Below the pieces are notes generated by a model. The model made no database searches and was not told the DNA's origin. It saw only the letters and a list, made by a program, of their open reading frames with translations. A stretch of 64,000 bases of DNA, from contig JAHCBA010000003.1 of assembly GCA_019634625.1 (NCBI GenBank), forward strand, positions 186,001-250,000, in the 5' to 3' direction. The position numbers and the translations under genes are program-made. Shown here in pieces: positions 14,441-34,763 of the stretch. Numbering within the stretch: the first letter of the stretch is position 1; every line of letters starts with the position of its first letter. Origin of the DNA: Verrucomicrobiia bacterium (GTDB lineage: Bacteria > Verrucomicrobiota > Verrucomicrobiia > Limisphaerales > CAIMTB01).

Positions 14441-14640
14441 AGTCAACAATTAAAATGCCTGACCTACTATTCTATTGGATTTAGGCAACCAAAAAGCGCA
14501 TGGCCCTTTTCCAGTCGTCAATCGTCAACACGCAATTGCGCCTGGCCTATTAATTCTCTCCTCAGTCAACAAAAATGTGCCCGACCTACTAATTGGATTT
14601 CAGTCAATAAAAGTTTGCCTGACCTTCTATTTGGATTCGC
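14441..14640. repeat. AT-rich intergenic island with four GTCAACAA-type repeats
   Basis: Between the beta-helix gene and rhaA (14361-14856) the sequence turns sharply AT-rich. Four diverged copies of a unit of about 37 bp start at 14441, 14523, 14564 and 14602. The clearest, at 14564, begins agtcaacaaaaatgtgcccg and continues acctactaattggattt. The last two copies are 38 bp apart. Related units occur near 27.0 and 51.8-52.1 kb. I see no gene in 14361-14856; the part after 14640 is pyrimidine-rich and leads into the rhaA start. Confidence 0.75.
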
Positions 14641-18841: not shown

Positions 18842-19585
18842 TCAAACCAAGGGAAGGCTTCGTTCCGGCGGCTGGCCGAATCCGAAGGTGGCGAGGAAAT
18901 GTTCTTCCGGGGCGGCGATGCGGACGGGCCGACGGGTGAACGGGTCGCGATAGCGGAGTTCGATTGCGCGCAGGGCCAGGCCGCCGCCTGCGCGGCCGTA
19001 GAGGTCGTCGCCCAGGACGGGCCAGCCGTCGGCGGCCAGGTGGAGGCGGATCTGGTGGGTGCGTCCGGTGACGGGGCGGGCTTCGATGAGGGCGCGGTCG
19101 TGGGCGGTGGCGAGGACGCGGAAAGCGGTTTCCGCGGGCTTGCCGTGTCGGCGATCCACACGGCGCCGGGAGACGTCGTTCGGGTCGGTTCCCAGGGGGA
19201 GCTGGCAGATCCAGGTGTCGTGCCGGGGGATGCCCTGGACGACGGCGAGGTAGCGCTTCTCCATCTGGCGGGATTCGAACAGGCGTCCCAGGCTTTCGAC
19301 CGCGCCCTGGGTCTTGCCGAAGAGGAGAATGCCGGTGGTCGGGGCGTCGAGGCGGTGGATGTAGCGAAGGAACCGAAGGTGCCGGGACCGGGCCCAGAAG
19401 GCGCCGGCACCGATGGAAGACTGGATGGCGGCCTGGAGATTGCGGTCCGTCTTCTGCCATCCGAAGGGCACCAGCATCCAGCCGGCGGGTTTGTCGATGG
19501 CCAGCACGGCGCGGTCTTCGTAAAGGATCGGGATGCGGACGGCGTCGCGACCGCGACCGAGTTCGACGTGAGGCGGCTTGGGCAT
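18842..19585 (-). CDS. RluA-family pseudouridine synthase
   Basis: A 247-residue cytosolic RNA-modifying enzyme. It has ILYEDRAVLAIDKPAGWM (about 20-37), the catalytic HRLDAPTTGILLFG with the nucleophilic Asp (about 78), KRYLAVVQG (about 110) and the conserved GRTHQIRLHLA stretch (about 173). There is no N-terminal S4 domain, which fits the short RluA/TruC-like branch; the target uridine cannot be predicted. An intergenic block with repeated ggcggag units and the 36-bp palindrome lies upstream. Confidence 0.93.
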   Translation of the reverse strand: MPKPPHVELGRGRDAVRIPILYEDRAVLAIDKPAGWMLVPFGWQKTDRNLQAAIQSSIGAGAFWARSRHLRFLRYIHRLDAPTTGILLFGKTQGAVESLGRLFESRQMEKRYLAVVQGIPRHDTWICQLPLGTDPNDVSRRRVDRRHGKPAETAFRVLATAHDRALIEARPVTGRTHQIRLHLAADGWPVLGDDLYGRAGGGLALRAIELRYRDPFTRRPVRIAAPEEHFLATFGFGQPPERSLPLV

Positions 19586-19648
19586 GGGGGCGGAGGGCGG
19601 AGGGCGGAGGGCGGAACGGGGTTCGGAAGGAGTGAGAGCAGGTAAATG

Positions 19649-19684
19649 GCCCTAAACTTCGTGCATATGCACGAAGTTTAGGGC
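19649..19684. repeat. Perfect 36-bp palindrome
   Basis: Positions 19649-19684 form a perfect inverted repeat with no loop, centred between 19666 and 19667 (core ttcgtgcatatgcacgaa, outer arms gccctaaac/gtttagggc). It includes the stop codon (19678-19680) and last sense codon of the diacylglycerol-kinase-like gene. There is no T-run on either side, so it is not a standard intrinsic terminator. It could be a dimer-protein binding site, a cruciform, or a remnant of a palindromic repeat element. Confidence 0.9.
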
Positions 19685-20586
19685 TGTTTCGATGGGGGGT
19701 GAAGGAGGCGGAGGGCGGCGGGGAGGAGGTGGAGTGTGGCGGGGAGCCAGCCGACCCATTCGCCGTCGAGTTGGAGCGGGGTGGGGCGTGGGGCCTGGAG
19801 TTCGAGGTGGCGGATGCGGGCGGCGAGGAGGTGAGGGGATGGAAGCCAGCGCCGGGTGAGGTAGGCAACGAGGGCGCGAAGGAGCAGGCCGGGAGTGATG
19901 GCGGGGACGAGGCGTGCGTGGAGGAAGCCGCTGTCGAGGGCGCCGTCCTCGAAAACCGGGATGGCACCGGCGTAGTGGCGTCCGTTGCCGGCGAGGAGGA
20001 GGGGGCCGCGGGCGGGCGGGTTCCAGGAAGGGCATTCGACGAGGTCGGAGTGGCGGCGCCAGGCGCGCCAGGCGGCGGCGACGTAGGCGAGTTTGCCGAG
20101 GCGCCGTTTGAGGCGGGGATCGACTTCGAGAACGGCGCGGGCATCGAGACCGGCGCCGGCGACGGCCAGGAAATGGGCGCGGGCCGGCTGGAGGCCGGGG
20201 TCCTGGAATTCGGCGAGGCCGACATCGACGGGGCGGGGGGTGCCCTGCTGGAGGAGGTTCCAGGCGCGGGCCGGGTGGAGGGGGAGGCGGAGTTCGTGGG
20301 CGAGGATGTTGGCGGTGCCGAGGGGGAGGATGCCGAGGGTGGCACGGGCGAGGCCGTCGGGGACATCGGCGATGCCGTTGAGGACCTCGAAGACGGTGCC
20401 ATCGCCGCCGGCGGCGACGAGGGTGGTGAAGCCGGCGTCGAGGGCGAGGCGGGCGAGGAGTCTGGCGGAGCCGGGGCCGGTGGTGGGGCGGAGTTCGGCG
20501 GGGGCTGGGAGGGTGTGGAGAAACTGGCGGAAGGGGCGGGCGCGATTTCCGCCGGCGGCGGGGTTGAAAATGACGCAGGCGCGCAT
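19678..20586 (-). CDS. Diacylglycerol/lipid kinase family protein
   Basis: A 302-residue DAGK-catalytic-fold enzyme that would phosphorylate a lipid alcohol at the membrane using ATP. Landmarks are CVIFNPAAGGNRA (4-16), the GGDGT nucleotide loop (VAAGGDGTVFEVLNG, about 57-71), LGILPLGTANILAHEL (84-99) and the C-terminal LQLDGEWVG (271-279). The ATG at 20586 is 1 bp after the stop of the preceding gene. The upstream genes encode two small single-TM proteins, so the set may act at the inner membrane. Substrate is not deducible; YegS-type lipid kinases are the nearest described relatives. The stop codon lies inside a perfect palindrome. Confidence 0.9.
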   Translation of the reverse strand: MRACVIFNPAAGGNRARPFRQFLHTLPAPAELRPTTGPGSARLLARLALDAGFTTLVAAGGDGTVFEVLNGIADVPDGLARATLGILPLGTANILAHELRLPLHPARAWNLLQQGTPRPVDVGLAEFQDPGLQPARAHFLAVAGAGLDARAVLEVDPRLKRRLGKLAYVAAAWRAWRRHSDLVECPSWNPPARGPLLLAGNGRHYAGAIPVFEDGALDSGFLHARLVPAITPGLLLRALVAYLTRRWLPSPHLLAARIRHLELQAPRPTPLQLDGEWVGWLPATLHLLPAALRLLHPPSKQP

Positions 20587-26683: not shown

Positions 26684-27020
26684 GATGCTGGCGGGGAGGG
26701 TAGAGGGGCAGTGGCGGCGGTCGCGAGCGTGATTTCGGGGTGCGCGATTTCGCCAGAATCCCAAGCGAGCATGCTCGGCCCAATATTGTTGGGACTTTCC
26801 GGGTGACCCGGGGGGTTCGAAGGGCCGCAGGTATGGGGAAGCTTGGCAGGATCCGAGGGGGTTCGGAGGAAAAGGCCATCAGAGATCAGCGAGAGAGAGG
26901 GCGAATCGGCGTTGGGACGTTGAAGAGCCCAATATATTGAAACAGGCTGTTTAAGATTGACGCGCTCTCCGCACGTCCCGCCTACCCGTCCCAGACTCCA
27001 CCTTCCACGGTGGGCGCAGC

Positions 27021-32134: not shown

Positions 32135-32147
32135 CGGGCTTGAAACG

Positions 32148-32310
32148 CGGTGCATCCCGGAGTCGTGGGGAGAGGTGCGAACGTCGCGAAGCGTCGCTTC
32201 GGAGTGCCGAGTTCCATGAAGCCTCAACAGTGTGGAGCGTTGGGTTGAGGACTCGCGGAGCTCGTCCCTCCGATTCGCGGCCCCCGCACCCACAACTCCG
32301 GGATGCACGG
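32148..32310. mobile_element. MITE-like element, full copy (163 bp)
   Basis: The ends are imperfect inverted repeats of about 23 bp: left cggtgcatcccggagtcgtg, right (reverse complement) ccgtgcatcccggagttgtg. The element is flanked by the 7-bp direct repeat TTGAAAC (32140-32146 and 32312-32318), which looks like a target-site duplication. It carries no transposase. The interior (from gagaggtgcgaac through ggagctcgtccctccg) recurs at 32925-33071 and 34671-34763 in the same orientation. Together with the preceding hairpin it fills the gap between 31983 and the tRNA gene. Confidence 0.7.
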
Positions 32311-32437: not shown

Positions 32438-32512
32438 GCGCGCTTAGCTCAGTGGTAGAGCACTTCCTTCACACGGAAGGGGTCTAAGGTTCGAATCCTT
32501 AAGCGCGCACCA
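32438..32512 (+). tRNA. tRNA-Val (anticodon CAC)
   Basis: A 75-nt tRNA with 3' CCA encoded. Acceptor stem GCGCGCT/AGCGCGC is perfect, D stem GCTC/GAGC, anticodon stem CTTCC/GGAAG with loop TTCACAC (anticodon CAC, reading GTG), T stem TAAGG/CCTTA with loop TTCGAAT. A recombinase-like fragment begins about 70 bp after its 3' end, the usual arrangement for integration at a tRNA gene. Confidence 0.97.
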
Positions 32513-32924: not shown

Positions 32925-33071
32925 TGGGGGAGAGGTGCGAACTTCGCGCAGCGTCGCCTCGGAGGGGCGAGTTCCACGAGGCCGCAACGGTGTGGAGCGC
33001 CGGGTTGTGGACTCGCGGAGCTCGTCCCTCCGGTTCGCTGGCTCGGTACCGACAACTTGGGGATGCACCGT
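32925..33071. mobile_element. MITE-like element, second copy
   Basis: Same order and orientation as the 32148 copy: gagaggtgcgaac, gcgtcgc, gcgagttccacgag, acggtgtggagcg, actcgcggagctcgtccctc, and a right end gacaacttggggatgcaccg. The left inverted end is too diverged to place exactly. It interrupts the recombinase-like frame. Between it and the next gene (33072-33260) I see no gene. Confidence 0.65.
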
Positions 33072-34529: not shown

Positions 34530-34670
34530 TGGGCCTGATCGAGGAGGCCTATGCGGGGGAGATCTTGAGGGCAAACGCTGTCTGGTATGAATGGGGCTTG
34601 GTTGAGCTCCAATACTCTCCTGGTAAGCGGCTTGCGTCGTCGGGTGTCCGGCAGGGTCCCGAAGATCCAC

Positions 34671-34763
34671 CGGCCCGCAACGGTGTGGAGCGTTGGGTTG
34701 AGGACTGGCGGAGCTTGTCCCTCCGATTCACGGCCTCCCCACCCACAACTCCGGGAGGCACCG
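34671..34763. mobile_element. MITE-like element, left-truncated third copy
   Basis: Only the right part of the element is present, from ccgcaacggtgtggagcg through gcggagcttgtccctccg to the right inverted end acaactccgggaggcaccg. The left half is missing. It lies in the 309-bp gap 34530-34838, which otherwise holds no recognisable gene. Confidence 0.65.

Follow-up and report, generated by a model that had tools for sequence, protein, structure and literature searches.

A perfect palindrome at the end of a lipid kinase gene

We analyzed a perfect palindrome at positions 19649-19684 of a 64-kb window, the stretch of 64,000 nucleotides at positions 186,001 to 250,000 of contig JAHCBA010000003.1 in Verrucomicrobiia bacterium assembly GCA_019634625.1. 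The assembly (6.74 Mb, 88 contigs) is referred to here as G000. The palindrome is 36 bp long, with 18-bp arms and a loop of 0, and ranks top among the inverted repeats of the window. It overlaps both the end of a kinase gene and the 92-bp gap that follows between this gene and its co-directional neighbor. The TAA stop codon of the kinase gene (minus strand, 19680-19678) falls inside it.

A first-pass annotation, made from the letters alone, had described a loopless perfect inverted repeat that covers the stop of a lipid-kinase-like gene and lacks a T-run. Each part of this description held. The gene product carries DAGK_cat and YegS_C domains, no T-run was found at the palindrome, and a scan for consensus terminators gave no match there. 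At the GC content of the window, an 18-bp perfect arm is expected by chance 9e-6 times per 64 kb and 1e-3 times per 6.74-Mb assembly, in agreement with the earlier judgment that a chance origin is very unlikely. An Rfam search of the window returned tRNA only and nothing at the palindrome. The extent of the element needed a small revision: the 36-bp palindrome stands, while the consensus of the repeat family described below widens the whole unit to 46 bp (19644-19689). The features of the locus are as follows.

19644 to 19689, no strand: 46-bp repetitive extragenic palindromic (REP)-like repeat, whole family unit, with its symmetry axis between 19666 and 19667 (family alignment and model)
19649 to 19684, no strand: perfect 36-bp palindrome within the 46-bp unit (arms 18 bp)
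19660 to 19673, no strand: nearly invariant 14-bp core CGTGCATATGCACG, the hairpin tip (exact at 68 sites of the genome, at none for the reversed control)
19678 to 19689, minus strand: last three codons of the kinase gene, AAA CAG CCC, and TAA stop, supplied by the repeat (sequence and homologue comparison)
19678 to 20586, minus strand: diacylglycerol-kinase/YegS-type gene, whose 3' end probably received the insertion (Pfam DAGK_cat 4.6e-25, YegS_C 1.8e-11; gene call)
18842 to 19585, minus strand: RNA pseudouridylate synthase gene, next downstream on the same strand as the kinase (Pfam PseudoU_synth_2 1.8e-29)

Folding of the minus-strand RNA of this copy predicts a stem of 16 bp closed by an AUAU loop, at -29.8 kcal/mol (z -9.2). 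Next to the repeat, at 19588-19615, runs a short tandem stretch of GGAGGGC, and similar stretches occur at many places in G000 and in the same-genus genome G003.

A repeat family within one genome

The palindrome has many relatives in its own genome. In G000, 43 places matched its inner 26 bases at 3 or fewer mismatches, and 68 held the 14-base core exactly; the reversed control gave 0 in both searches. Within stretches fetched around known sites we counted 99 copies at 62 loci, accepting a core with at most 2 mismatches, or with at most 4 where at least 16 of the 23 pairs were formed. The core was exact in 67 of the 99. Outside this count, a separate array at locus C18 holds 10 copies with the core GTGCATGTGCAC or near it. 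A covariance model built from 38 copies gave at least 151 matches in G000, with both strands counted and the best 150 first-look candidates scored.

Alignment defined a family unit of about 46 bp, composed of AAATnGACnnAAACTTCGTGCAT and its complement, beyond which conservation fades. The hairpin tip, CGTGCAT followed by ATGCACG, is nearly fixed across copies, and the arms vary. On one side the window copy matches C20 without a difference over 41 bases, and on the other it matches C74 in the same way, so its two ends differ in subtype. The family shares the traits of REPs in the broad sense, being palindromic and present in high copy number, with a length of about 46 bp that slightly exceeds the usual 20-40 bp.

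Placement relative to genes

Genes were predicted with a simple codon-usage caller trained on the window, 81.5% of which is coding. At 61 of the 62 loci, any overlap of the repeat with a called gene is 15 bp or less; at the remaining one, C58, it runs about 23 bp into the end of a gene. The loci comprise 29 co-directional, 8 divergent, and 6 convergent gaps, 18 flanked by a called gene on just one side, and the 1 overlap. As the gaps of the window itself are mixed in a similar way (11 co-directional, 6 divergent, 4 convergent), none of the locus classes shows a clear enrichment. Some genes may have been missed, as a few of the gaps around the loci are very wide.

Within co-directional gaps, the position of the repeat was skewed. 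Copies lay nearer the 3' end of the upstream gene in 22 of 29 cases (p 0.008), and in 19 of 21 when gaps of up to 400 bp were considered (p 0.0002). This extragenic placement close to upstream 3' ends fits a REP in the broad sense.

Arrays and contig ends

More than one copy within 400 bp was found at 18 of the 62 loci. Spacings between copies in arrays range from 45 to 244 bp, with 31 of 37 falling between 95 and 160 bp. Ten arrays hold at least 3 copies, and in most of them the linker repeats along with the palindrome. The arrays at C1, C22, C42, and C53:15408 have one unit of about 124 bp in common (linkers 81-94% identical for the best pairs in both orientations), with weaker linker ties to C9, C23, and C68; reversed linkers yielded no such pair. 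Because linkers are related between arrays, a composite unit, made up of the palindrome and about 78 bp more, has spread as well. One paralogous pair differs in copy number: C30:18383 has one copy, C53:6211/6357 has two, and the surrounding sequence is 83-88% identical. The extra segment in the latter consists of a palindrome and a 100-bp linker that is absent from the flanks, and gain and loss are indistinguishable here.

Loci also crowd at contig ends, with 17 of 62 lying within 400 bp of one where 0.65 would be expected. Several contig ends have a palindrome-array unit in common (C11/C39, C8/C19, C54/C55, C28/C63, C10/C68, and also C20/C28). Together these observations indicate that long arrays probably break the assembly. 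The shared units suggest that such ends belong to neighboring contigs parted by unresolved arrays.

Covariation of the arms

Although the arms differ between copies, they tend to match within a copy. Among the 38 aligned copies, 80.5% of cells paired, compared with 73.6% in shuffles, and 75 cells were changed on both sides, compared with 37.8; none of 500 shuffles reached either value. Sliding the partner by 1-3 columns abolished the signal. The unconserved arm positions that covary are pairs 8, 9, 14, and 15. Perfect arms of at least 18 bp occurred at 13 of 62 loci when one copy was taken from each, whereas 2000 shuffled-half sets averaged 0.7 such loci and never exceeded 4. Over all copies, 14 of 99 had such arms, in 10 distinct versions. 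They were commoner at single-copy loci (12/44) than at multi-copy loci (2/18). Kinship of the copies, i.e. inheritance within subfamilies, accounts for part of this covariation. The perfect arms are varied, which suggests that complementarity has also been restored or selected.

Relatives and the history of the window copy

The family was not found in any genome searched other than G000. The exact core was absent from 57 relatives, four of them from the same genus, and the covariance model found no match at E 0.01 in 39 relatives. Searching 319 further genomes of the order, many of them among the same relatives, with a pattern of 18 fixed positions gave no match. A pattern of 22 fixed positions had 0 matches in the genome_contigs collection, which may omit the genome of the window itself. 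With 20 fixed positions, 5 single matches appeared in unrelated genomes, and none of the stretches fetched around them held a second copy. Four were short, terminator-like stems in A/T tracts, and the fifth was a palindrome with 29-bp arms in an Acidobacteria metagenome-assembled genome. The 18-position pattern gave 1 match in viral contigs, with a 9-bp arm. None of these was accepted as a member of the family. A search for similar palindrome families in samples of G002 (345 kb) and G003 (326 kb) gave 3 and 2 strong hairpins, respectively, none of which recurred.

The same gene end was compared in relatives, a check that the first-pass annotation had proposed. The kinase homologues of G002, G003, and G004, all of the same genus, end in TGA near the same point and lack the palindrome (match positions distinguished the G002 locus from the G004 one). 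By this comparison, AAA CAG CCC and TAA in the window gene are the end of the repeat itself. Since three homologues end without the repeat, it was most likely inserted at the gene end in the window. Judged from the sequences, the history of this copy was likely an insertion, or an insertion followed by conversion. Among its options, the annotation had included a palindromic repeat that came to lie at the end of the gene, to be recognized as a mobile repeat by many copies elsewhere and absence from close relatives. That option is supported by the 99 copies at 62 loci in the same genome and by the three gene ends that lack it.

Alternative explanations

If a dimeric DNA-binding protein, either a regulator or a nucleoid-associated protein, recognized the palindrome, the copies would be its binding sites. 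The symmetry and the nearly fixed 14-bp core would suit such a protein, and the first-pass annotation had listed a protein-binding site among its options. We nevertheless regard it as improbable. The copies favor the 3' side of upstream genes (22/29) rather than promoters, and many sit in arrays. In addition, unconserved arm positions covary, which a protein that binds duplex DNA would not need. A recombination site, also among the options of the annotation, found no support, although no direct test of it was made.

If the repeat served mainly to terminate or attenuate transcription behind genes, this would agree with the 3'-end bias and with the very stable predicted RNA hairpin. However, the T-run and any match in the terminator scan are missing, convergent loci are not in excess (6 of 62, against 8 divergent), and the repeat is lineage-specific. 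A plain terminator, which the annotation had tied to clean termination at the hairpin, is therefore very unlikely, and this reading was rejected.

A collapsed miniature inverted-repeat transposable element (MITE), in which a larger insertion sequence would have shrunk to its two terminal inverted repeats, set back to back, is the least probable of the three and was rejected: the repeat is dispersed, lineage-specific, and palindromic, and the genome holds another MITE-like repeat, but the half-site AAACNNCGTGCATB is rarely found alone (13 places, control 1; 10 are core-variant palindromes at C18, C40, C58, and C68), and matches between the flanks of copies trace to a 164-bp repeat (described below), to array units, or to a small number of duplicated stretches, and a full element common to them was not seen.

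Interpretation and the search for a mover

The palindrome is very probably one copy of a REP-like family that multiplied in this one lineage. Copies would have spread as a folded single strand, or hairpin, moved or copied by some enzyme. Insertions would survive mainly just behind genes, where harm is least, and one copy, having landed on the end of the kinase gene, would have become its last three codons and stop. In transcripts the window copy would fold into the very stable hairpin predicted above (16 bp, AUAU loop). Any effect of this hairpin is probably that of a passive structure at the 3' end, lying between the messages for the kinase and the pseudouridine synthase, and not that of a regulated site.

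A more specific proposal, possible though doubtful, is that the family is the substrate of an undescribed enzyme, distinct from the REP-associated tyrosine transposases (RAYTs), that recognizes the fixed hairpin tip. Copying of the folded strand would reset the arms and drive growth of arrays in units of about 124 bp. By resetting complementarity, such copying would explain why the tip is fixed and why the arms differ between copies yet match within each copy.

Several observations weigh against spread as a mobile REP-like family. Most copies are imperfect, with perfect arms shorter than 18 bp in 85 of 99. The number of pairs with any both-side change (11, versus 9.7 in shuffles; 128/500 shuffles as high) shows no excess. 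One genome was available per species, such that the insertion was compared through homologues of other species rather than through strains, and same-genus genomes are about 70% identical at the locus, so exact insertion boundaries are not visible. Lastly, a mover was not evident. An excess of Y1_Tnp domains (30 Pfam matches in G000, including a few of other types, versus 3-8 in four same-genus genomes) prompted a RAYT reading, which was rejected as no family copy was found at any of the 30 loci. At 29 of them no core-like site with up to 2 mismatches was present, stretches at contig ends being one-sided. The sole core-like match, at L088, has 2 mismatches and 10 of 23 pairs, lies about 0.9 kb from the Y1_Tnp gene, and is of chance quality.

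The Y1_Tnp genes have features of their own. Most belong to one family of about 330 amino acids multiplied in G000 (L083-L110 except L099), and many lie at contig ends. The motif GTCAAN2-5AAANNGNCTG, found at 51 places in G000 (reversed control 1) and in the window at 14442-14461 and 26943-26961, often occurs in 1-3 copies directly upstream of these genes, e.g. at L083 and L098. The MITE-like repeat of about 164 bp has inverted ends of about 25 bp and occurs in the window at 32147-32308, 32927-33070, and 34663-34763, within a lower-GC stretch near a tRNA (32438-32509), and in L050 at about 2057-2224. Besides the query it had at least 39 long matches in G000 (best 40 candidates scored), short weak ones only in G002 and G004, and none in G001 or G003.

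Comparison with known repeats

Bacterial interspersed mosaic elements (BIMEs) are mosaics of REPs, in which palindromes form arrays with short linkers. The present arrays resemble them in having short linkers between palindromes. They differ in that each array unit holds one near-symmetric palindrome, whereas the REPs of BIMEs alternate in orientation.

REPINs, or REP doublets forming hairpins, are symmetric hairpins with compensatory changes, and their tandem clusters take in flanking sequence as well (Bertels and Rainey 2011, PMC3116915), and the present family is like them in all of these respects. In REPINs, however, the ends are conserved and the middle is variable (PMC3116915), while the present family has a nearly fixed tip and variable arms. 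REPINs also go with RAYT transposases (PMC3116915), none of which was seen beside the repeat at the 30 Y1_Tnp loci. REPs divide into imperfect- and perfect-palindrome kinds (Corneloup et al. 2021, PMC8266576), and perfect palindromes occur here as among the REPs processed by TnpA-REP. The cognate TnpA-REP gene and GTAG motif of those REPs (PMC8266576) were not found here.

REPs in general lie behind upstream open reading frames in species-specific families (Di Nocera et al. 2013, PMC3733652). The ends of GTAG REPs may supply TAG stops (PMC3733652), much as the end of the present repeat supplies a stop codon, here TAA. GTAG REPs bear an unpaired GTAG at one end; here none of 62 units (one per locus) carries GTAG/CTAC, and there is little conservation outside the 46-mer. 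CGTC REPs have an unpaired CGTC at one end, a stem of 8-9 bp, and a loop of 4-5; they lack a dedicated transposase, and tagless REP-like families exist too (PMC3733652). Similarly, no transposase gene was found beside the present family. Its stem, loopless and of up to 23 bp, exceeds that of CGTC REPs, and CGTC/GACG occurs at the expected place on either side in 27 of 62 units and on both sides in 9, paired rather than unpaired. Unlike the known families, it is conserved at the hairpin tip rather than the foot.

A published description of the family was not found in the open-access literature, which is a weak negative. The most fitting label for it is an untagged REP-like family, whose sequence is new and whose kind is ordinary. 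A striking palindrome would thus be explained as a repeat insertion that rewrote a gene end, and an untagged, tip-conserved family is added to the REP-like repeats. With covarying arms and arrays in one genome, it offers a usable case for how palindromes without an evident transposase spread.
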